NCBI GenBank assembly: GCA_015178975.1
Contig: WHVD01000136.1
Location: forward strand, 62,001-126,000
Length of the DNA stretch: 64,000 nucleotides
DNA from: Hysterangium stoloniferum
Lineage: Eukaryota; Basidiomycota; Agaricomycetes; Hysterangiales; Hysterangiaceae
Direction: 5' to 3'
Below are positions 2,999 through 30,002 of the stretch, piece after piece. The notes under the pieces are model-generated. The model did not search any database. It saw only the letters and a list, made by a program, of their open reading frames with translations, and was not told the DNA's origin. Position 1 is the stretch's first letter. Each line of letters opens with the position of its first letter. Made by a program: the position numbers and the translations under genes.

Positions 2999-3540
2999 TG
3001 TTAAGTGCCATGTCGGAACTTATTCTGGAACTATCAGAAAGTCACCGGAAAGTCGGGAACTATCGGATAGGGTCAGGACGTTGGCTTCAGCTTATGTGCT
3101 GTGCCTCTACGCAAACACTCAAAGTCCTTAATTTCAGAAGTGGGACTTACAATGGAAGATACAGATATTCAGAGTTCCGAAGAGTTCCAAATATCTAGCG
3201 TACAGAAAGATGGAAGAAGGAATAAGAAACTAAGTCGATATCAAATCTAAGGTAAAGTACAAATTTGCGGAAACTAATATAAGTCTTCTCGTTATTGTAC
3301 TACAAACTGAGACTATAATAAGATGGAAATGGAAGTATTCTTAAATGGGAATACAATAAGACATATCGGGGAGACAATATTCCGAAATGGGAATATAATA
3401 AACAAACAAGTGAATACTTGTCAACAGACAAATTACCAAATGTGGAACAAGGGAAGAATGCAGAAGATACAGTAACTATGATGTTCCGTAGTCAAAGATC
3501 GGAAGTCGGATATTAAAACATCCAGGAATGGGTTGTAACA
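2999..3540 (-). repeat. 3' LTR of Gypsy family A
   Basis: The 542-bp segment begins TGTTAAG and ends TTGTAACA on the plus strand, so it has TGTTA..TAACA ends. It is oriented on the minus strand: just outside its minus-strand 5' end lies the purine-rich tract AACAGGGGGGTAC (minus strand, 3541-3553), as expected for a polypurine primer next to a 3' LTR. It carries the conserved hairpin at 3081-3103, 82 nt from its 3' end. Confidence 0.75.
3081..3103 (-). other. Conserved LTR hairpin, copy 1
   Basis: On the plus strand the arms are GGC and CAGC pairing with GCTG and GCC around the loop TTATGT, with TT and T bulges. It is a copy of the 23-nt element described under findings; the sense transcript of the element carries the complementary hairpin. 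Confidence 0.6.
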
Positions 3541-3553
3541 GTACCCCCCTGTT
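3541..3553 (-). promoter_or_regulatory. Polypurine tract of Gypsy family A
   Basis: The minus strand reads AACAGGGGGGTAC directly before the LTR start TGTTACAACC. Position and composition fit the primer for plus-strand DNA synthesis and orient the element on the minus strand. Confidence 0.55.
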
Positions 3554-4113
3554 AGGCTGAAATCCCATAGAGGTGATTAGGTAAGGTAGGCGTCACTTTA
3601 GTTTGGCACCTGTTTATGTAAGCAAAAAAGTGACCTGCTCGCACTCCTTTCTGTGCTTCCACAACATAGATAATCTGTAATCAAAGCCCAGGGAAGTGGA
3701 GTTGGGATCCATTCCTCCAGTTCTCAGGTTTAAAACTTGAAAAATAATTCACCCTTGCCAAGTAGTAGGACTTACAAATTTTGACTTTTTTTTTTGAGTC
3801 TCTGAATACTTAAAAATGCATTTCCATGTGATTCTGAGATTTTCAAAATTTCAACAGTGTCAGTATTGGCCGCTTACATAATCATCATGTGATATATTGG
3901 GCAGCCTTGTTTCAAGGCCTAAAATTGGAAAAGAAAACTGTATTAAATCAGTAAATGGTTGTATTAAATTCAAATATATGTACCTATATTACTTACCTAA
4001 GAAAAAGAGGGTATAGTTGCACATGTACTTGTGCAGTAAGCTGTGCACTTGATCACAGGCCACATTACATAAGCAGCACAGTAGCAAATGCACAGTTGCA
4101 CAGTTCTACTACC

Positions 4114-4424
4114 ATGCCTCAGAAGTCTAAAGCTGCACAATCTCACATCAAAAACCTTGGATCCAAGGCACAAAAAAGCCCTCAGTGACAATCAAGGATG
4201 TCCCAGATAATGATAACTTCAATTGCAAACCAGTTTCTCTCAATCTAGATCAAAGCAATGAAAGGATGTATGAGAAAGCATTTATTGTGCATGAAGAAGA
4301 TGGATCTCTCACCTTGGTGGGCTTTTTTGATGACTTTGAGGAAGAACCTCTACCAGATCTTGCTCCTGATTTGGACTCAGATGATGAAAATGATGAAAAT
4401 CCTAGAGATTATTACCCAGAGATT
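4114..4424 (+). pseudogene. N-terminal fragment of an unidentified transposon protein
   Basis: An ATG at 4114 opens a basic stretch (MPQKSKAAQSHIKNLGSKAQKSP). After a frame change near 4185 an acidic frame follows (DNDNFNCKPVSLNLDQ, then EEEPLPDLAPDLDSDDEND), ending at the solo LTR at 4425. Basic starts of this kind with an acidic linker are common in fungal DNA-transposon proteins, but I do not recognise the family and no catalytic domain is present. Confidence 0.4.
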
Positions 4425-5265
4425 TGTTAGGATACACACTCAGGCTGGGTTTCCGGAGAAACCTGCGGGATATCTGGTAGGACTTGGCTTCAGCTTATAG
4501 GCTGCGCCCTCGCTAGATCGTGTTGTCCAATTTCAAACGGACGGATGGGGATCCCGGGGAGTCCGGGCGGGGTTCGTGGGTCGTAGGTCGTAAGTCGGGG
4601 GTCGTGGGTCGTAAGTCGGAGGTCGTGGGTCGTGAGTCGAGTTGGTTGAGAGAGATAGATGCGCCGGAGCCCCTGGGCTCCGACTAGTGTGAGCGATGTG
4701 AATCGAGTAAGGTTTTTAGAGTGGAAAATATTATTAGATTACTGGGGGGAATCTAAGCTAATTTTCTGACTGGATTGTATGTACAACATCTGCCAGTTTA
4801 TATAGACCGTGGAATGCATGACATACCAAATCCAGTAATAATGAAATGAAACTAACAAAACATAAAACGGGAATAGTAAACACCAAATTGGTGTTAGGAA
4901 CAGAACAGAACGGAGCGGAGTCCGAATCGTGACAAAGCATAACCCATAACAGGAAACGGAGCGGGAGTGGAGTCCTAAATCGTGACAGGTCATTTGACTA
5001 AAATGGGAATGGGGCTCGATTAGAGCGGTGACGGGATTCTAAGCGGGGACCGGTGACTGATGCGTGGGACGAAGATGGACATAGACAGAGATGGAGTCCG
5101 GGGGAAGTCCGGTGACTGATATGTGTCGTAATGAGGTCGAACGTAACGAGTCTTGATGTAACGGAGTCCGGGCGGGAAATCCTATAAACAGACGATTGGT
5201 GCTTGTAGTGCATGGGGGCATACGGGTTAGTGCCCGGAGTCCGGCGGGATTGTCCAGTTGTAACA
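4425..5265 (-). repeat. Solo LTR (Gypsy-type), TSD AGATT
   Basis: The 841-bp LTR starts TGTTAGGA and ends GTTGTAACA, flanked by a perfect 5-bp duplication AGATT (4420-4424 and 5266-5270). It has no internal region. The hairpin lies 61 nt from its plus-strand left end, so it is oriented on the minus strand. It belongs to the same LTR group as the solo LTR at 29,841-30,728, with long stretches nearly identical. It contains short GTCGTGGGTC/GTAAGTCG repeats at about 4570-4640. Confidence 0.85.
4486..4508 (-). other. Conserved LTR hairpin, copy 2
   Basis: Same stem as the other copies (GGC, CAGC / GCTG, GCC) with loop TTATAG and a C bulge on the plus strand. It is flanked by GGACTT on the left and CTCGC on the right, as in the family B LTR. 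Confidence 0.6.
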
Positions 5266-5481
5266 AGATTCAAGAACTCTCTGTATTTTTTGACTTCATA
5301 ATAAATTTTTCAAAAATTTGATTTGCAAATTTGGCCACTCTTGGCACTTAGTAATATGATTACATAAGGTGCTGAACTAAAGTGATGCCTACCTTACTGA
5401 GTGATTGAAGTGACAGCTAATTGTTATGTGTCGTGAAATTTACGCAATTATGGAGGTGAGAGTTTCGGCTGCTGTCCTGAG

Positions 5482-5488
5482 TATAAAA
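5482..5488 (+). promoter_or_regulatory. TATA box of the antisense gene, family A
   Basis: TATAAAA lies 56 nt upstream of the ATG at 5538, inside the element and outside the LTR. The family B copies have the same heptamer 57 nt before their ATG. Confidence 0.6.
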
Positions 5489-5537: not shown

Positions 5538-6649
5538 ATGTCAATTCGTCAACTGTTGTTCAACACTACCCCGGAAGATTCAGACACCGAAATTGCCATA
5601 CTTCAAAAAATGTTGAAGGTCGCAATGGAGGAGATGAAGCAGCGACAAGAGGAGGAGGAAAAGGTTTTGATGCAGGAGTTGAAAAAGGCAGAAGAGGCGG
5701 AAAAATGGGAGTTGGAGCGAGTGAAGGTGGAAAAGGAGGCATGGATATGGAAGACGGTGGAGGTTCAGAAGAAGAAGGAAGAGGTGGAAAAACTACAGTG
5801 GGAGTCTGAGGCGGCGGAAAAATGTAAGGAGATAAGGGAAGGAAAGGTAAGTCCAAACCATAAGTTTCTGTAGTTCCATCCGATAACTATTGGGTACAGC
5901 GAAAAGCCGTGGAGGTGGAGGTAGAGGGAGAGGCTGGGCCTTCGAGTCCTAAAGTAAGTACCATTTGTAAGAGGTCGGAAGTTGATTAACTTCCGAATAC
6001 AGAAGCAAAAGGTCAAAGCTCCGGAACGGATGGAAGTCCTCCATGACATTCTGTGTCATCAATGTTCAATTCGGAATATGACATGCTGGAAACAAAAGGT
6101 AAAATGGGGTGGAACTTGCTATCCCTGCATGGTCCTCAAACTTCTGTGCACACTCGCTGTGAAGAGTGTTCCAAAAGTGAGAAGGCTCAGAAAACTAACG
6201 ATGTGGAAAGTTCGGGAGTGGCCAATGCGGTGGGAACTGAGATGCCGAACACAGATAGTATGGGCGTCGAACTCCTCAAGGACACCATCGACGCGTTAGT
6301 CTTTATCGGGACAGAACTTATGAAAATGTGGGATGCACTGGATTGCCATAATGATATCCAGGAAAAGGGTTTCCATTCGTTGACCCGGAATTTCCGGAGG
6401 CAAAACGAGTTTCTGGAGAAGGTAATGGTTAGCATCGGTATTATTGCAGTTTCCGAGAGGTTTTCCAATAAGGCAAGGGAGCAACCAAATGATCCGTTGG
6501 TGGAGTGTGTCGAGAAAAGGTGGGAGTCAGGAAAAGGACCGGAAAGTGAAGATGAAGAAGTACAGGATATGGTGGAAAGTGCGGAGATCGTGGATGATAT
6601 GGGAGTTGAAGCAGAAGGAGGGTTTGGGGTGTCAGAAACATTAAAATAG
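5538..6649 (+). CDS. Antisense coiled-coil / Cys-cluster gene of Gypsy family A (decayed)
   Basis: Exon 1 (5538-5846) encodes a short N-terminus and about 80 residues of Lys/Glu-rich coiled coil. It ends at a GTAAGT donor. Exon 2 (5900-5953) encodes an acidic stretch ending GPSSPK before another GTAAGT, and exon 3 begins at 6003 after an AG with KQK. These boundaries and residues match the family B gene. Exon 3 has CHQCSIRNMTC, the C-x2-C-x6-C half of a Zn2Cys6 cluster, then after a frame change CEEC without the last cysteine, then a helical C-terminus that reads open to 6649. The gene faces pol (stop at 6740) and has its own TATA box. The cluster looks damaged, so this copy is probably inactive. 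Its function is unknown; a transcription-factor-like role is inferred from the family B motif. Confidence 0.6.
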
Positions 6650-6739: not shown

Positions 6740-7594
6740 TCAAAGTGATGATAAAGGTCCGGGTTTGCTCGGATAAGCTGTGTGGAAGTCAGTAACAATT
6801 TCCATAGCGTGTCCAAGTTCTGTGGCCAATATCCATGAAGTTTCCTCGTTGGTACCTTCATAACCTGCCCATTTGACTAAATAGAGCAATTTACAAGTAC
6901 GTTGGCGATTGTTGATTTCAGAATCCAAAAATTTGGAAACTTCAAATACAGGCACTCTGTCAATGATGACTGGAGGGGACGGAGGTTGAATACATTCCGG
7001 GATTTTGTTAGGAGCACATGGTTCTAACATGGAAATGTGGAAGATGGGGTGGACTGCTCACATACTATCGGAAAGTCGGAGAGTCCATGAAAGTGAACCA
7101 GCTTGTGCTATAATTTCAAAAGGGCCTAAGAATTTCTCAGTGAGTTTTTTAGAAGGTCAGGTGGTATGGAAGAATTGAGCTTTTACAAAAACCTGATCAC
7201 CAATTTTAAAATTAGGAGGCAGGATCCTGTTTTTGTCCATGGAACGTTGGTAATATTCCTGTGCGGAAGAAATAGCTTTCTGAAGTTCTTGATGTAATTC
7301 ATCGAGGTCGGTAATAAATTCTTGAGCACGGACAGAAGCCAAATCTTGTTCGGAATGTACTGTGAGATTTGGATTATAGCCTTTGTTGGCGAAAAAAGGA
7401 GATACGCCGGTAGTTGCATTCAGAGAGTTGTTGTAGGTGAATTCTGCGATTGGAAGAAGGGATTTCCAGTTGTCCTGTTGATAATTGCAATAGATGCAGA
7501 GATACTGTTCCAATGTTTGATTAACACGTTCCGTTTGTCCATCACCTTCCGGGTGATATCCCAAGGTGAAGTGTGAAGGGTATGCATATATCAT
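6740..7594 (-). pseudogene. Gypsy family A pol remnant: integrase end and chromodomain
   Basis: The 7594-7157 frame has GYHPEGDGQTERVNQTLEQY (the glutamate end of the integrase catalytic core) and the FFANKGYNPN and KIGDQVFVKAQFF blocks. The 7030-6740 frame has a chromodomain (LLYLVKWAGYEG...EETSWI). Between them the minus strand reads KKLTEKFLGPFEIIAQAG, then a TGA where family B has arginine (DNMRAVHPVFH). Upstream pol is missing. It is most similar to family B and clearly non-functional. Confidence 0.8.
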
Positions 7595-16215: not shown

Positions 16216-16937
16216 TGTTAAGAACTGAAAACTGACTAATGTCGGTGGCTGACAGGGACCGATCGGAAGGACTTGGCTTCAGCTTATGTGCTGCGCCCTC
16301 GCAAATATCTGTAGGATGTCCTTAAATTTCGGGCGGGCGAAGACTAATCCTAATGAGTACCTTTTGGCGTGATACCGATCGGAATCGAAGGACAAGTCGA
16401 GCATCAGGCCAAGGGGTCGGGGCCAAGAGTGGGCGAGCACACACGAAGGCGGATGGGGGGATTCTTAGTATGAGACTGATACAGGCATATGAGGGTATTC
16501 TGAGTCGATATTCTGATTGCCTAGTGACTACAACTACAGCGGGTTCATATACAAGTAACAGGCGTCTGGAAAATACTAATGGGGAGAAGGGTGGAACACG
16601 GTATTAACAATAAGCTTGACTAGGAACGGGAAGTTTATGATTAGTTCGGAGGCCGATGATAACTGAGAGCGGGATTACAATAAAAGGAAATAGTTCAAGG
16701 ACTACAAATATAGATAGACATATGCGAAACATAAGATTGGACGGATCAACATAATAAAGGGGACGTATCAAAGTTTGACCAGACAATACGAGTTATTTTG
16801 ACGTGGGCGTAAACGGAGTTTGATCTTCGCGAAAACATTCGTCAGCTTCGGGGCCAATGGTTTCCGAGAGGATGACTTGAAACGTTGACAAGTGGCGATA
16901 ACCTTGGGACCAATAGGGTTGCGACACGGTCGTAACA
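16216..16937 (-). repeat. 3' LTR of family B, left arm
   Basis: The plus strand begins TGTTAAGAACTG and ends GGTCGTAACA, 722 bp. It is the inverted partner of 23,292-24,012 (721 bp). The minus-strand purine tract at 16,938-16,952 marks it as a 3' LTR read on the minus strand. Confidence 0.85.
16275..16297 (-). other. Conserved LTR hairpin, copy 3
   Basis: Plus-strand arms GGC, CAGC / GCTG, GCC around TTATGT with a C bulge. It lies 59 nt from the LTR's 3' end. Confidence 0.65.
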
Positions 16938-16952
16938 GTATCTCCCCTTTTG
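16938..16952 (-). promoter_or_regulatory. Polypurine tract of family B, left arm
   Basis: The minus strand reads AAAAGGGGAGATAC directly before TGTTACGACC, the LTR start. The same tract precedes the right-arm LTR. It fixes the orientation of the copy. Confidence 0.7.
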
Positions 16953-17053
16953 GCCGAAATCCCAAGGAGGCCGAAAATCTAGATCCCGTACGTAAAACTT
17001 GTCGGGTACGGCTGGGTGTGTCAAAACATCATGTGACTCGGCAAAATTTTGCA

Positions 17054-17060
17054 TATAAAA
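17054..17060 (+). promoter_or_regulatory. TATA box of antisense gene, family B left
   Basis: TATAAAA lies 57 nt before the ATG at 17,111, between the gene and the 3' LTR. The mirror copy is at 23,169-23,175, and family A has the same spacing. Confidence 0.65.
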
Positions 17061-17110
17061 GTTTGAGGGTTCCTGGCGCTTGAAATTTTACTTCCCTTCC
17101 TTTAACCACC

Positions 17111-18089
17111 ATGACCATAGGCTCGGGGTCAAAACCCTTCCCGGTTAGGTTAACAGTTGCGCCCATGTCGGTGCCGAGTGGTACGGCGAACGCGAAGGAG
17201 CGTCGGCATATACTCGAGCAGAAGAAAAAGGCACGTGAAGAGGAGGAGTGGAAGGAGAAGGAGGAGTTGGCGGCCATCAAGGCCGAGGAGAAGAAACAGG
17301 CGGCAGAAGAGGCCACGCGCAAGCACTGGGAAGCAGTGCTTGCAAAGAACAAGCAGCAGGAGGCCGATCGGGCGCGGGAGGAGGCGGCGAAAAAGAAGTG
17401 GGAGGGAAAGGTAAGTCGGCTCTGGTTTCTTTTGTGAACCCTACTGACAATATTTGTTAGCGCAAGGCTGCAATGCCTTCAGAGTCTGATGACGAAGAGG
17501 GAGAGGAGGACGAGGAGGATGCACCGGGGCCGTCGAGCCCCAAGGTGGGTTCGATTTCCTTAAATAAAACTTCCCTAAATAATTTTTCCTATAGAAACAA
17601 AAGCAGGCCCCCAAGGCGGGGCCCGAAAATGACCCCAAGTGCAATCAGTGCACGAAATGGGGTCGAACCTGTCATCCCCGGACCAATGGTCGGGGCCGCA
17701 CTTGTCAAGAGTGCGCCTATCAGAAGCTTGGGTGTGTTTTCCCGGGGGCCGATGGTTCATTCCAGGAGCAACAGGCCGATGCTCTAGAAGAGCAAAACCG
17801 CCTCATGCGGACCTACTTCTCGGAGACAAGTCGGTTCTGATATGAGACATTGCGACAACAAGGGCTCATAACTGAGCAATTGCGACTCTTGGGCGTCGGG
17901 CTGGAGAAACAGACCAGTGTTATCGAGTCTCTCGGTGGTCAACTTGAGCAGTATTTGGAAGTCTCGAGTTGCGATGGGCATGAAATTGGGGTTTCGGAGA
18001 AGGTCGGTGGTGTGGTATTGGTGGCTGTCAGTGCGGAGGAGGGTTCGGAGGCCGGAGAGGAGGGAGAAGTTGTAGAGGGAGAAACTTAG
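17111..18089 (+). CDS. Antisense coiled-coil Zn2Cys6 gene of Gypsy family B, left copy (one stop)
   Basis: Three exons: 17,111-17,410, 17,461-17,544 and 17,595-18,089, with GT..AG introns of about 50 nt. Exon 1 encodes a short N-terminus and about 70 residues of Lys/Glu/Ala-rich coiled coil. Exon 2 is acidic (DDEEGEEDEEDAPGPSSPK). Exon 3 has a cysteine cluster C-x2-C-x6-C-x10-C-x2-C-x6-C (CNQC..RTC, CQEC..LGC), the spacing of the fungal Zn2Cys6 binuclear cluster, then a second predicted coiled coil (NRLMRTYF..GLEKQTSVIESL) and an acidic end. A TGA at 17,838 interrupts this copy where the right copy has CGA. The gene is convergent with pol, 96 nt apart. The known family role of Zn2Cys6 is DNA binding; its role here is inference. 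Confidence 0.7.
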
Positions 18090-18185
18090 ATAATGAAATT
18101 ATATCGGTTTTTCTTTAAAACAAACAAATCATAGCGTGAAAACATAAGGCATAGTCGGAAAAAGGTCAGGTACCGCGTGATAGAC

Positions 18186-19748
18186 TTATAAAGAATTGAG
18201 AGGACCGGGTTTGTTTGGATAAGCTTGGTGAAACCCTAAAACGATTTCCGAGGCATTACCGAGCTCTGTAGCTAGGATCCATGAAGTTTCTTCATCTGTA
18301 CCTTCATAGCCAGCCCATTTGACCAAATAAAGTAATTTGCATGAGCGTCGGCGATTGTCGATTTTTGAGTCTAGGATCTCTGATATCTCGAATTCGGGTT
18401 CCCCATCAATAATCATGGGTGGAGGTGGTGGTTGTATGCGATCGGGTATACTGTTAGGAACACAAGGTTCTAACATAGATACATGAAATACCGGGTGCAC
18501 TGCACGCATGTTGTCGGGGAGCCGAAGCGTCCATGAAAGCGTGCCGGCTTGTGCTATAACTTCAAACGGACCTAAATATTTTTCAGAGAGCTTCTTAGAA
18601 GGTCTAGTAGTTCAGAAGAACTCGGCTTTAACGAATACTCGATCTCCGATCTTGAAATCAGGAGGCGGAAGTCGGTTTTTATCCGCAGACCATTGGTATC
18701 GTTCTTGGGCCGTTGCAATAGTTTTACGAAGTTCTTGATGTAGCTCGTCAAGGTTGGTAACAAAGTCTTGAGCACGGGTGGATGCGAGATCACGTTCCGG
18801 GTGGATTGCGATGTTGGGGTTGTAGCCTTTATTTGCGAAGAAAGGCGAAATGCCGGTAGTGGCATTTGGTGCGTTGTTATATGCGAATTCAGCTAGCGGT
18901 AGTAGTGATTTCCAATTGTCTTGTTGATAGTTGCAATAGACATGGATGTATTGTTCCAAGGTTTGATTCATGCGTTCGGTTTGTCCATCGCCTTCCGGGT
19001 GATAGCCTGAAGTGAAATGTAGCTTTATGTCTAGTGCTTTTCCGAGTGACCTAAAGAAGTGAGAAACAAACTCGGATCCGCGATCGGATGTGACATGCGA
19101 CAGAACGCCATGCTTGGAGAATACATGGGTGATGAATAATTCAGCTAACTGTACAGATGTTATCGTGTCATATGTTGGAATGAAAATACTTTGCTTTGAG
19201 AGCCGATCCACAACAACTAGGATTGCTGTGTGACCTTCAGATGCTGGTAGGTGCTCGATAAAATCCATAGAAATCGAGTTCCAAGGTTTTTCCAGTATCG
19301 GTAATTGTTTGAGTAGGCCATATGGTTTGTGTCGCTGTGATTTAGAGCGTAAACACATAGTACAGGATTTACAATAGTGCTTAACAAAATCTCGGATGCC
19401 GGGCCATGTATATTCTCTTCTAATGAGTGAGAGGGTCTTATTGAGGCCGAAATGTCCCGAGATTGGGTGGTCGTGCTTATGTTGTAGGATTCGCAGCCGA
19501 AGGGTGTCGGAATCCGGTACATAAATGTGATTGTCAAGTCTAATGAAACCTTGTGAGTCTAATGACCATCGGGGTTGATCGGGGTCGGACGGGTTATCGA
19601 GGTGTGCTTTGGTGACTGGGTCTAATGGAATTGCCGATAGTATATCTTGATGTAACTTTTCGGTATCCATAAGGATAACACTTCGCAAGACTGGATGAAT
19701 GAGATAAGTGGCTCGGATAGACGCAGACAGTTGTTCCGATGAAAACAT
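18186..19748 (-). pseudogene. Gypsy family B pol, left copy (integrase and chromodomain, 5'-truncated)
   Basis: The 19,748-18,612 frame runs from FSSEQLSASIRATYL through the integrase zinc finger (HKHDHPISGHFG..CKSCTMCLRSK), the catalytic core (SMDFIEHLPASEGH, SDRGSEFVSHFF, GYHPEGDGQTERMNQTLEQY) and KIGDRVFVKAEFF, then a stop. The chromodomain with its lead-in follows at 18,509-18,186 (LLYLVKWAGYEGTDEETSWI). RT and RNase H are missing, because the arm ends at the palindrome junction 19,749. All integrase DDE positions visible are intact. Confidence 0.85.
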
Positions 19749-19749
19749 A

Positions 19750-22045
19750 ACACAGTTGAATATTTAGGCTTTATGATGGGACCTGATGGTCTCCGCATGG
19801 ACGACTCTAAAATTCAAGTCATTCAAGATTGGCCGGAACCCCAGAAGGTTAAGGATATTCAATCCTTTCTAGGCTTCGCCAATTTTTATCGTCATTTCAT
19901 TCACAACTACTCAAAAATTACCGTTCCGCTCACCCGTCTTACTCGTAAAGACGCCCCGTGGAATTTCTCCGAAGAATGCCGATCGGCATTCCAGGAATTG
20001 AAAAGTGCGTTTACATCCGCCCCTATTTTGTCGCACTGGAAGCCCGACGTTCAACTCATCGTGGAAACTGATGCTTCGGACTATGCGCTTGCCGCGATAT
20101 TGTCCATTCTGGACACCGATGGTGAAGTACACCCAGTAGCTTTTCTGTCTTGCACATTTTTGGCGCCCGAACTCAACTATGACGTTCACGATAAGGAATT
20201 ACTCGTAATATTTGAAGCTTTCAAGACATGGCGACATTATTTGGAAGGCTCGGCCCACCCGGTAGATGTTATTACAGACCACAAAAATTTAGTTTACTTT
20301 TCAACCACAAAACTTCTCACCCATCGACAAGCTCGATGGTCCGAATACCTCTCTGCTTTCAACATGGTAATTCGTTTCCGCCCTGGCCGCCTTGGTGGAA
20401 AACCCAACGCTATGACTAGACGATGGGACGTCTATCCTAAAGAGGGGAGTAGCGACTACGCCACAGTTAACCTGCATAATTTCAAACCTATGTTTTCATC
20501 GGAACAACTGTCCGCGTCTATCCGAGCCACTTACCTCATTCATCCAGTCTTGCGAAGTGTTATCCTTATGGATACCGAAAAGTTACATCAAGATATACTA
20601 TCGGCAATTCCATTAGACCCAGTCACCAAAGCACACCTCGATAACCCGTCTGACCCCGATCAACCCCGATGGTCATTAGACTCACAAGGTTTCATTAGAC
20701 TTGACAATTGCATTTATGTACCGGATTCCGACACCCTTCGGCTGCGAATCCTACAACATAAGCACGACCACCCAATCTCGGGACATTTCGGCCTCAATAA
20801 GACCCTCTCACTCATTAGAAGAGAATATACATGGCCCGGCATCCGAGATTTTGTTAAGCACTATTGTAAATCCTGTACTACGTGTTTACGCTCTAAATCA
20901 CAGCGACACAAACCATATGGCCTACTCAAACAATTACCGATACCGGAAAAACCTTGGAACTCGATTTCTATGGATTTTATCGAGCACCTACCGGCATCCA
21001 AAGGTCACATAGCAATCCTAGTTGTTGTGGATCGGCTCTCAAAGCAAAGTATTTTCATTCCAACATATGACATGATAACATCTGTACAGTTAGCTGAATT
21101 ATTCATCACCCACGTATTCTCCAAGCATGGTGTTCCGTCGCATGTCACATCCGATCGCGGATCTGAGTTTGTTTCTCACTTCTTTAGGTCACTCGGAAAA
21201 GCACTAGACATGAAGCTACATTTCACTTCAGGCTATCACCCAGAAGGCGATGGACAAACCGAACGCATGAATCAAACCTTGGAACAATACATCCGTGTCT
21301 ATTGCAACTATCAACAAGACAATTGGAAATCACTACTACCGCTAGCTGAATTCGCATATAACAACGCACCAAATGCCACTACCAGCATTTCGCCTTTCTT
21401 CGCAAATAAAAGCTACAACCCCAACATCGCAATCCACCTGGAACGCGATCTCACATCCACCCGTGCTCAAGACTTCGTTACCAACCTTGACGAGCTACAT
21501 CAAGAACTTCGTAAAACTATCGCAATGGCCCAAGAACGATACCAACGGTCTGCAGATAAAAACCGACTTCCGCCTCCTGATTTCAAGATCGGAGACTGAG
21601 TATTCATTAAAGCCGAGTTTTTCCAAACTACTAGACCTTCTAAGAAGCTCTCTGAAAAATATTTAGGTCCGTTATAGCACAAGCCGGCACGCTTTCATGG
21701 ACGCTTCGGCTCCCCGACAACATGCGTGCAGTGCACCCGGTATTTCATGTATCTATGTTAGAACCTTGTGTTCCTAACAGTATACCCGATCGCATACAAC
21801 CACCACCTCCACCCATGATTATTGATGGGGAACCCGAATTCGAGATATCAGAAATCCTAGACTCAAAAATCGACAATCACCGACGCTCATGCAAATTACT
21901 TTATTTGGTCAAATGGGCTGGCTATGAAGGTACAGATGAAGAAACTTCATGGATCCTAGCTACAGAGCTCGGTAATGCCTCGGAAATCATTTTAGGGTTT
22001 CACCAAGCTTATCCAAACAAACCCGGTCCTCTCAATTCTTTATAG
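19750..22045 (+). pseudogene. Gypsy family B pol, right copy (RT end, RNase H, integrase, chromodomain)
   Basis: It starts inside RT at VEYLGFMMGPDGLRM, then RT connection (WPEPQKVKDIQSFLGFANFYR), RNase H (LIVETDASDYALAAIL, DKELLVIFEAFKTWRHYLEG, VITDHKNLVYFS), and the integrase finger and core as in the left copy. At 21,597 TGA replaces the CGA of the left copy (KIGD-stop-VFIKAEFF). At about 21,670 a 7-bp deletion (GTTTGAAGTTATA to GTTATA) shifts the frame. The chromodomain frame resumes at 21,722-22,045. The RT fingers and palm are absent. Confidence 0.85.
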
Positions 22046-22141
22046 GTCTATCACGCGGTACCCGACCTTTTTCCGACTATGCCTTATGTTTTCACGCTAT
22101 GATTTGTTTGTTTTTAAGAAAAACCGATATATTTTCACCAT

Positions 22142-23118
22142 CTAAGTTTCTCCCTCTACAACTTCTCCCTCCTCTCTGGCCTCCGAACCCTCCTCCGCAC
22201 CAACAGCCACCGATACCACACCACCGACCTTCTCCGAAACCCCAATTTCATGCCCACCGCAACTCGAGACTTCCAAATACTGCTCAAGTTGACCACCGAG
22301 AGACTCGATAACACTGGTCTGTTTCTCCAGCCCGACGCCCAAGAGTTGCAATTGCTCAGTTATGAGCCCTTGTTGTCGCAACGTCTCATATCGGTACCGA
22401 CTCATCTCCGAGAAGTAGGTCCGCATGAGGCGGTTTTGCTCTTCTAGAGCATCGGCCTGTCGCTCCTGGAATGAACCATCGGCCCCGGGAAAACACACCC
22501 AAGCTTCTGATCAGCGCACTCTTGACAAGTGCGGCCCCGACCATTGGTCCGGGGATGACAGGTTCGACCCCGTTTCGTGCACCGATTGCACTTGGGGTCA
22601 TTTTCGGGCCCCGCCTTGGGGGCCTGCTTTTGTTTCTATAGAAAAAATTATTTAGGGAAGTTTTATTTAAGGAAATCGAACCCACCTTGGGCTCGACGGC
22701 CCCGGTGCATCCTCCTCGTCCTCCTCTCCCTCTTCATCATCAGACTCCAAAGGCGTTGCAGCCTTGCACTAACAAATATTGTCAGTAAGGTTCGCAAAAG
22801 ACACCAGAGCCGACTTACCTTTCCCTCCCGCTTCTTTTTTGCCACCTCCTCCCGTGCCCGATCGGCCTCCTGCTGCTTGTTCTTTGCAAGCACTGCTTCC
22901 CAGTGCTTGCACGCGGCCTCTTCTGCCGCCTGTTTCTTCTCCTCGGCCTCGATGGCCACCAACTCCTCCTTCTCCTTCCGCTCCTCCTCTTCACGTGCCT
23001 TTTTCTTCTGCTCGAGTATACGCCGACACTCCTTCACGTTCACCGTACCACTCGGCACCGACATGGGCACAACTGTTAACCTAACCGGGAAGGGTTTTGA
23101 CCCCGAGCCTATGGTCAT
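22142..23118 (-). CDS. Antisense coiled-coil Zn2Cys6 gene of Gypsy family B, right copy
   Basis: Mirror copy of the gene at 17,111-18,089, with the same three exons and intron positions on the minus strand (start 23,118, stop 22,142). The cysteine cluster reads CNRCTKRGRTC and CQECADQKLGC, spacing C-x2-C-x6-C-x10-C-x2-C-x6-C. The codon that is TGA in the left copy is CGA (SRYRYETLRQQG), so I see no inactivating change in this copy once the introns are removed. It lies between the pol end (22,045) and the 3' LTR, convergent with pol. TATAAAA lies 57 nt upstream on the minus strand (23,169-23,175). I know no Gypsy protein of this make-up; capsid-like gag features and zinc knuckle are absent. 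Confidence 0.75.
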
Positions 23119-23168
23119 GGTGGTTAAAGGAAGGGAAGTAAAATTTCAAGCGCCAGGAACCCTCAAAC

Positions 23169-23175
23169 TTTTATA
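23169..23175 (-). promoter_or_regulatory. TATA box of antisense gene, family B right
   Basis: Minus-strand TATAAAA 57 nt before the ATG at 23,118, mirror of 17,054-17,060. Confidence 0.65.
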
Positions 23176-23276
23176 TGCAAATTTTTGCCGAGTCACATGA
23201 TGTTTTGACACACCCAGCCATACCCGACAAGTTTTACGTACAGGATCTAGATTTTCGGCCTCCTTGGGATTTCGGC

Positions 23277-23291
23277 CAAAAGGGGAGATAC
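23277..23291 (+). promoter_or_regulatory. Polypurine tract of family B, right arm
   Basis: AAAAGGGGAGATAC directly before the LTR start TGTTACGACC at 23,292. It shows that the downstream LTR is the 3' LTR of the plus-strand pol. Confidence 0.7.
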
Positions 23292-24012
23292 TGTTACGAC
23301 CGTGTCGCAACCCTATCGGTCCCGAGGTTATCGCCACTTGTCAACGTTTCAAGTCATCCTCTCGGAAACCATTGGCCCCGAAGCTGACGAATGTTTCGCG
23401 AAGATCAAACTCCATTTACACCCACGTCAAAATAACTCGTATTGTCTGGTCAAACTTTGATACGTCCCCTTTATTATGTTGATCCGTCCAATCTTATGTT
23501 TCGCATATGTCTAGCTATATTTGTAGTCCTTGAACTATTTCCTTTTATCGTAATCCCGCTCTCGGTTATCATCGGCCTCCGAACTAATCATAAACTTCCC
23601 GTTCCTAGTCAAGCTTATTGTTAATACCGTGTTCCGCCCTTCTCCCCATTAGTAATTTCCAGACACCTGTTACTTGTATATGAACCCGCTGTAGTTGTAG
23701 TTACTAGGCAATCAGAATATCGACTCAGAATACCCTCATACACCTGTATCAGTCTCATACTAAGAATCCCCCCATCCGCCTTCGCGTGCGCTTGCCCACT
23801 CCCGGCCCCGACCCCTAGGCCCGACGCTCGACTTGTCCTTCGATTCCGATTGGTATCACGCCGAAAGGTACTCACTAGGATTAGTCTTCGCCCGCCCGAA
23901 ATTTAAGGACATCCTACGGATATTTGTGAGGGCACAGCACATAAGCTGAAGCCAAGTCCTTCCGATCGGTCCCTGTCGGCCACCGACATTAGTCAGTTTT
24001 CAGTTCTTAACA
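23292..24012 (+). repeat. 3' LTR of family B, right arm
   Basis: A 721-bp unit from TGTTACGACC to AGTTCTTAACA, inverted partner of 16,216-16,937. The two LTRs differ by scattered transitions, several at CpG sites, so the copies have diverged since they were joined or were different copies before. Confidence 0.85.
23931..23953 (+). other. Conserved LTR hairpin, copy 4
   Basis: The plus strand reads the complement of copies 1-3 (GGC, CAGC / GCTG, GCC around ACATAA), 59 nt from the LTR 3' end. This is the form present in the sense RNA. Confidence 0.65.
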
Positions 24013-24785
24013 GATTCCCTCAATTCTAACTATGCATCCCCTTTCCACTGCTGCCCAGTATGAGAACCTTTTTCTACTTAATGCTGGCCATTCTGCCAGA
24101 CATATTTCAGTTTCTGCTGGCTATAGCTATGCTACTATCTCTAGACTTTGTTCTAAACACTGTTCCCACCTTTCTAAGTCCTCTGGTGGTCACCCTTCCA
24201 AAATCTCCACAGCCAACATACATTTTGCACAACACCTTATCAGCTCTGGAAAGGCTGATACAGCTGTAGATGCAACAAAGGCACTTTGCACTATCACCAA
24301 CCAGTCACTCAATCCTCAAACAGTGCATTGTGGACTCAAGGCAGCTGGGATGAAGCCTGTGGTAAAGAAGAAAAGGCCTCTTCTTTCTAAGAGGCATAGG
24401 AAAGAGAGGATGGATTTTGCTTTGGCACATCAGGATTGGACTGTGGAGGATTGGAAAAAGGTGGTGTGGTCTGATGAGACCAAAATTAATAGGCTGGGGT
24501 CAGATGGCAGGAAGTGGGTGTGGAAAAAGTGTTATGTATTTTTAGGTTTTTCCGATTTTTAACCAATCTCCCCCTAAACAAATTGATAAAAACAAGTTCA
24601 AATGTACTTATATTGCGACGAAATTATTGTACAATATTCTCCTGAATTTAACCTGATTTTTACAATTTATTTCATATTTTTATGATTTAATTTGGGAGAA
24701 CTATCGAAATTCTACTGTTTATTCTTTTTTAACTAAAAATCTTCGAAGTCGGCCTTCTGGCGCTTATTGCACAACGCGCGGGAAT

Positions 24786-25033
24786 ATTCGTCACAAAAGG
24801 TGACATTCGTCACAACGGTGACATTCGTCACAACGGTGACATTCGTCACAACGGTGACATTCGTCACAACGGTGACATTCGTCACAACGGTGACATTCGT
24901 CACAACGGTGACATTCGTCACAACGGTGACATTCGTCACAATGGTGACCTTCGTCACAACAGTGACTGTCGTCACAATGGTGACCTTCGTCACAACAGTG
25001 ACTGTCGTCACAACAAGTGACCGTCGTCACAAA
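24786..25033. repeat. 18-bp minisatellite, self-complementary unit
   Basis: Tandem copies of GTGACATTCGTCACAACG: eight or nine near-identical units, then about five with altered spacers (ACCTTC, ACTGTC). Each unit contains GTGAC and GTCAC, so adjacent units can pair in two registers. All six frames are open through much of it, which explains the long but meaningless frames there. Confidence 0.9.
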
Positions 25034-25348
25034 ATGCGACGACTTGTCACAAACGCGACACGCGCGGGAAAATTATGTAATCAGCGCGCGCACGAAATCA
25101 GCAACTTCGCGACGCGCGAGAACATTACATCAGCATATATGCTACAATGGAAAGTAGCAGAAACTCCTGGAATATTCCAGCAGATTCCAGGTAAAATAGC
25201 TAAAAATAGGTAAAACAAGTAGCTAGAACATTCTCCCATGTCTCAGATTTTACTGTATATAAGGAGCTCTGCTCCACCACTGAAATATAACTTATTTTAA
25301 CCCATTTACTACACCACATCAGTGTGCCACTGCATCAGCAGTTATATT

Positions 25349-29834: not shown

Positions 29835-29899
29835 GATGAGTGTTAGAATACGTACAGGGCGGGTCTCTAGAGAAACCCGCAGGATATCCGGTAGGACTT

Positions 29900-29922
29900 G
29901 GCTTCAGCTTATAGGCTGTGCC
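29900..29922 (-). other. Conserved LTR hairpin, copy 5
   Basis: Arms GGC, CAGC / GCTG, GCC with loop TTATAG and a T bulge; 59 nt from the LTR's 3' end. Confidence 0.6.
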
Positions 29923-29979
29923 CTCACTAGATCATGTCATCCAATTTCAGACAGGTGGACAGGATATCCGGTAGGACTT

Positions 29980-30002
29980 GGCTTCAGCTTATAGGCTGTG
30001 CC
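29980..30002 (-). other. Conserved LTR hairpin, copy 6 (duplicate of copy 5)
   Basis: Identical to copy 5, produced by the 80-bp tandem duplication within the same LTR. Confidence 0.6.

Follow-up and report, generated by a model that had tools for sequence, protein, structure and literature searches.

What does an intron-bearing gene do on the strand opposite to pol, inside a retrotransposon? The question is raised by a 64,000-nucleotide stretch of the genome of the fungus Hysterangium stoloniferum (contig WHVD01000136.1, positions 62,001 to 126,000; hereafter the window), where Gypsy elements of two families, A and B, carry a three-exon antisense gene between pol and the 3' long terminal repeat (LTR). 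It is well supported that this gene is an integral part of Ty3/Gypsy elements in this genome, and sequence comparisons give similarly good support to its having been kept by purifying selection on the protein. Our preferred reading, to which we assign a probability of roughly 60%, is that it belongs integrally to fungal Ty3/Gypsy chromoviruses as an accessory gene and encodes a Gal4-like (Zn2Cys6-type) DNA-binding protein that controls the transcription of its own element.

Position of the gene within complete elements

The region 16216-24012 of the window consists of two family B elements, both 5'-truncated, that meet head to head at 19749/19750, where the joint is asymmetric; the pair is not bounded by a target-site duplication, its flanks being GAAAC and GATTC. 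The gene lies inside the element, between the pol stop and the polypurine tract (PPT) and LTR, in both arms, because the inner LTR edges, at ~16937 in arm 1 and ~23292 in arm 2, are located beyond it. Its stop is ~95 nt from that of pol, in keeping with the 90-97 nt given by the initial annotation. The arm 1 introns are both 50 nt long, and the arm 2 gene coordinates (23118-22142, minus strand) were derived by hand. Both copies are broken, the first by a stop at codon 210 and the second by single-base losses in exons 2 and 3. The features of the pair are as follows.

16216..16937, minus strand: arm 1 LTR (3' LTR of the minus-strand family B element), inner edge between TAACA and GTATCTCCCC
17054..17060, plus strand: TATAAAA of the arm 1 antisense gene, 57 nt before the ATG
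17111..17410, plus strand: arm 1 antisense gene, exon 1, 100 codons, charged, coiled-coil-like by eye
17461..17544, plus strand: arm 1 antisense gene, exon 2, 28 codons, acidic, GPSSPK at its end
17595..18089, plus strand: arm 1 antisense gene, exon 3, with six cysteines, a C-terminal helix and an in-frame stop at gene codon 210
17640..17735, plus strand: arm 1 six-cysteine stretch C-x2-C-x6-C-x10-C-x2-C-x6-C, Zn2Cys6-like, kept in all 23 family B rows and with a low-confidence fold match
18187..19749, minus strand: arm 1 pol, 3' part, integrase to chromodomain-like end, 5'-truncated
19750..22046, plus strand: arm 2 pol, reverse transcriptase to chromodomain-like end, 5'-truncated and broken in frame; its domains are those identified in copy L022
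22142..22635, minus strand: arm 2 antisense gene, exon 3, one base lost
22686..22768, minus strand: arm 2 antisense gene, exon 2, one base lost
22819..23118, minus strand: arm 2 antisense gene, exon 1
23278..23288, plus strand: arm 2 PPT, identical in sequence and place in 12/12 two-LTR copies
23292..24012, plus strand: arm 2 3' LTR, whose first ~160 nt are the counterpart of the U3 (unique 3') part in which, as in the gene, type C diverges

We searched the genome (111,116,353 bases in 554 contigs), where an initial scan listed 1394 candidates for family B and 391 for family A, and fetched 20 stretches of family B copies, from which 23 gene rows were kept: L008-L028 and the two window copies, with L001-L007 excluded as the window copies themselves or as loci present again in the later set. 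The rows were taken for their closest DNA similarity to the window and do not sample the family at random. A full LTR at each end is present in twelve copies (a count without L011, L014 and L021, whose LTRs are partial or interrupted), and all 12 have the gene between pol and the 3' LTR, which confirms the layout initially described. The same PPT and a near-identical sequence after the 5' LTR are found in these copies, 5-bp target duplications flank 10 of them, and their LTR pairs are 94.4-99.4% identical, with differences that are mainly transitions. Two whole family A copies also have repeat pairs flanking the same layout on both sides.

So that copies would not be chosen by the presence of the gene, a genome search was run with integrase only. 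Exon 3 was queried both from family B and from a third type, C, represented by one locus (L051) picked from rows without stops. An exon-3 match lay downstream on the opposite strand in 91 of the 111 integrase matches listed. The B query found it at 300-3000 nt in 76, five of which (724-727 nt) are type C places, and the C query found it for 15 of the remaining 35; no same-strand match within 3 kb occurred among the 150 B-query rows listed. Three of the 20 listed integrase matches without exon 3 are explained: window arm 2 is frameshifted, C549:425 is at a contig edge, and C95 has the whole antisense gene as DNA. The domain order in copy L022 is Retrotrans_gag, then RVP_2, RVT_1, RT_RNaseH, Integrase_H2C2 and rve, that is, gag followed by the protease, reverse transcriptase, RNase H and integrase of a Ty3/Gypsy chromovirus. 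Its pol ends in a Chromo match (PF00385, residues 1203-1256 of 1270, E 5.3e-5) that scores 23.5 bits against a cut-off of 25.1. With complete insertions that carry the gene and 91 of 111 listed pol matches, the description "retrotransposon-borne" holds.

As a separate observation, the family B element of L017 (1-9899) is inserted in an apparent older relative that shares 72% identity with B in the antisense gene and 87% at the pol end.

A selected protein with a six-cysteine domain

Both introns have GT..AG boundaries in 23/23 family B rows, and equivalent introns are present in A, B and C, as the initial annotation had noted for A and B. Its claim that TATAAAA lies 56-57 nt before the ATG in all copies stands for 19 of the 23 rows (57 nt); the distance is 54 nt in two, and in two the exact word was not found. 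It had also proposed looking for full Gypsy copies with this layout, and the host genome has the 12 above. Although both window B copies are broken, the ATG, length and full 292-codon frame are intact in 11 of the 23 B rows; family A is mostly decayed, with one of 21 rows fully open (GT..AG at intron 1 in 19/21 and at intron 2 in 21/21). Family A is older than family B. Type C (L051) has intact exons of 309, 81 and 513 nt.

In three open examples, one each from B, C and A, the predicted frame is the only one without internal stops, every other frame having 3-16. When the 11 open B copies were compared with C, the nonsynonymous rate (dN) was 0.23-0.25 and the synonymous rate (dS) 1.8-2.4, which is near saturation, giving dN/dS of 0.10-0.14. 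Neutral simulations, with and without CpG excess, gave dN/dS of 0.72-0.87 and a mean of about nine stops for B and C and six for A. Thus, the frame is more than chance, since it alone is free of stops in the three examples and its dN/dS is far below the simulated values, and the claim that the gene is "kept by selection" stands. Differences between L022 and C fall 58/64/153 on the three codon positions; together with the dN/dS results, this rules out a chance open frame. The reverse-strand frame that shares wobble positions also has a low B-C dN/dS (0.28), but contains six stops in B and five in C. Within family A, three open copies gave pairwise dN/dS of 0.19-0.28, although two of the three had also been selected for an open exon 3, and all 21 rows gave a median of 0.238 (range 0.148-0.843; 210 non-independent pairs). 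Across these pairs dN = 0.094 x dS + 0.055, a relation expected if selection acts during element spread and neutral decay is added after insertion. Against selection, common variants within family B are mostly CpG changes and have no selection signal of their own.

The cysteine spacing C-x2-C-x6-C-x10-C-x2-C-x6-C, reported earlier for family B, is present there and also in A, where it had been missed, and in C. The Zn2Cys6 family (PF00172) has the pattern C-x2-C-x6-C-x(5-12)-C-x2-C-x(6-8)-C, and the cysteines of A, B and C (x10 and x6) fit it. A low-confidence AlphaFold model of the cysteine region has two CxxC-led helices, then a linker and a helix, and Gal4-type factors make up all 16 structure entries among the matches listed. 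Conserved cysteines and fold match support the view that the exon-3 region is a Zn2Cys6-type, Gal4-like domain that probably resembles DNA-binding ones. Two points weigh against this account of the protein: the cysteine region misses the PF00172 gathering score of 21 (13.7, 11.0 and 12.1 bits), and the model behind the fold match is of low confidence. We therefore call the domain "Zn2Cys6-like" and do not file it as a PF00172 member; the initial "Zn2Cys6" label has the support of the cysteines and of a low-confidence fold match but not of the Pfam score. Among full-length proteins, one of six matched PF00172, with E 5.5; a Pfam search with whole proteins gave no significant family, and a PDB sequence search returned nothing relevant. 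A homologue search found two proteins, both from H. stoloniferum, among the best 8000 candidates by shared words, and residues 122-320 of the family A protein had no homologue at E up to 10 among 579 candidates. P0001, a protein of H. stoloniferum, matches a single place in the genome studied here, at 96-98% identity over two short pieces and 78-80% over two more, which suggests a host close to that species.

The divergent block of type C and the family A copy

Over most of the compared integrase part, type C is 96-99% identical to L022. Its integrase segment differs by 1.9-5.5% from 22 B copies, within the B-B range (median 4.0%, maximum 6.3%), and a tree groups it with nine B copies (local support 0.996 for the subgroup, lower within it). 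Against four B copies, the identity of C is 52-77% in the stretch that begins at the pol end, spans the gene and reaches into U3, and 81-97% beyond the first ~150 nt of the LTR. The gene of C is at least 32.7% different from that of every B copy, whereas B copies differ from one another by at most 5.5%. For the first 160 nt of U3 the C-B difference is at least 32% (median 35%; B-B median 5.1%), and over the remainder of the LTR it is no less than 8% (median 11%; B-B median 4.8%). Between C and B, dS is ~2 for the gene; for the pol end it is 0.26-0.36 in the four B copies whose full 320 codons were compared. Judged from these alignments, the pol of type C belongs inside the B radiation, which is a new result. 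Since pol is near B while the gene and the start of U3 are a third different, the gene and the first ~160 nt of U3 appear to have been replaced as one block, a result that rests on one C locus. An identical 170-residue type C exon 3 occurs at eight or more scored places, the query's own included; several are on small contigs, and some may be assembly duplicates.

The family A copy in the window has these features.

3531..3549, minus strand: family A 3' LTR inner edge and PPT, both separated from the gene by a later insertion
5482..5488, plus strand: TATAAAA of the family A antisense gene
5538..5846, plus strand: family A antisense gene, exon 1
5900..5953, plus strand: family A antisense gene, exon 2
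6003..6649, plus strand: family A antisense gene, exon 3, six-cysteine spacing as in B, then a frameshift in the window copy
6755..7574, minus strand: family A pol, 3' end, 71% nucleotide identity to family B pol

An element that has inverted ends and a TA duplication lies at 3584-5394 here, so that ~2 kb separate the PPT and 3' LTR edge (3540-3549) from the ATG. Among the 20 other A copies, 17 have the LTR edge 184-188 nt ahead of the ATG, and for three it was not found within the stretch examined. The inserted element (inverted ends of AGGTAGGCGTCACTTTAG type) occupies the leader of the antisense gene and contains an LTR-like repeat (4441-5266) that recurs at 29855-30729. Beside the PPT, a GGCCGAAATCCCA..GAGG stretch is common to families A, B and C despite their differing neighbourhoods (window 3551-3573, 16950-16975 and 23250-23277); it may belong to the antisense promoter or take part in plus-strand priming. 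A tandem repeat of 18-bp spacing (CATTCGTCACAACGGTGA type) lies at 24742-25047, beside the right LTR of the family B pair.

Proposed role and known systems

If the protein controls its own element, antisense transcription would start at a TATA box immediately internal to the 3' LTR, with U3 upstream of that box. Splicing would occur only from the antisense strand, and the introns would survive the genomic RNA stage because they are read only there. The protein would enter the nucleus, dimerise and bind sites in U3. At the 3' LTR, U3 is next to the antisense gene, and its copy in the 5' LTR would drive gag-pol; one protein could control both because U3 serves at both LTRs, whether as activator, anti-silencer or self-limiting repressor. 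We infer that the element is a likelier target than the host, because the gene is part of the element and the adjoining start of U3 was apparently exchanged with it; no pointers to a host role were seen in this analysis. The joint replacement agrees with a cassette that pairs a regulator with its matching target. U3 contains CGG-type sites in both B and C, although their enrichment was noticed post hoc and they are conserved no better than other CpGs; TCGGCC was accordingly rejected as the binding motif and is kept as a lead only. A tentative extension, which we hold to be possible rather than probable, is that template switching passes the gene and U3 start from one chromovirus lineage to another as a single specificity cassette, in which a Gal4-type regulator of the element travels with the sites that it recognises. 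If true, such exchange, like that of phage immunity regions, would let a lineage escape self-repression or host silencing.

It is rather unlikely, though worth weighing, that the protein acts as a VANC-like anti-silencing factor, binding non-coding DNA of its own element to remove silencing rather than serving as an ordinary promoter activator or repressor. VANC is not known to be a zinc-cluster protein, and tandem target repeats were not noticed in U3. On the other side, many copy differences are CpG changes, which suggests element methylation, and the gene diverges jointly with the start of U3, as VANC proteins do with their targets in the part of the source available (PMC5735166). We think it improbable that the protein joins the cDNA complex as an integration tether or nucleoprotein factor and directs insertion to CGG-rich sites. 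The same element encodes integrase and a likely DNA-binding protein, and Zn2Cys6 proteins bind CGG triplets, but a chromodomain-like pol end could already provide targeting and a particle component made from a separate antisense promoter would be odd. A recently captured host transcription-factor gene, carried as a passenger, is very improbable: Zn2Cys6 genes are common in fungal hosts, yet the equivalent introns and cysteines of A, B and C date any capture before the family split, selection persists between families, and no host source gene turned up, though no search was aimed at one. Least credible is a functional antisense RNA (double-stranded RNA or gag-pol interference) with an incidental frame, for which the convergent arrangement and roles discussed for plant antisense reading frames could speak (PMC7264820, in part), but which as sole function is contradicted by dN/dS (0.10-0.14 for B-C, median 0.24 for A), a third-position excess and frames open at 33% nucleotide divergence, all of which need protein-level selection.

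With its recognisable DNA-binding-like domain, spliced structure and protein-level selection, and with a natural B/C swap that indicates where binding should be looked for, this gene makes the function of such genes directly testable; it also suggests that a retrotransposon may govern its own transcription.

Genes in this antisense position have been described before; a zinc-cluster example was not listed in the titles and abstracts of the literature searched, outside subscription papers. Zhao et al. (2011) reportedly deals with brtn, a gene of the Boty element of Botrytis, an ascomycete. Boty / BcGypsy1 of Botrytis cinerea is described, in the portions available, as a fungal Gypsy element with gag-pol, CHROMO and the extra antisense gene brtn (PMC8365987, PMC4227169, PMC5987419). 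The likeness to the present gene is one of described layout. VANDAL elements are plant (Arabidopsis) DNA transposons, and VANC has another fold. Their likeness to the present gene is one of working principle only, namely that the element encodes a protein which binds DNA sequence-specifically and whose targets change fast (PMC5735166, in part).

Plant elements with an antisense gene between pol and the 3' LTR include Grande (gene23), RIRE2 and Retand (TRP28), according to the available parts of two sources (PMC7264820, PMC11963269). The Grande gene, in the same position as ours, has its own promoter and a nuclear product, and TRP28 is, like our gene, predicted to bind DNA, but belongs to PF04195 (same sources, in part). 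Words beginning with "intron" or "zinc" are absent from the main texts of these two papers on plant elements, and the review, as far as available, describes the functions of LTR-element antisense genes as yet unknown (PMC7264820). Gal4-type Zn2Cys6 factors (PF00172) share with the protein a compatible six-cysteine spacing and, as far as the low-confidence model shows, two CxxC-led helices followed by a linker and helix. Unlike them, the gene described here is retrotransposon-borne, and its domain scores below the Pfam cut-off and stands mid-protein behind a long charged stretch.

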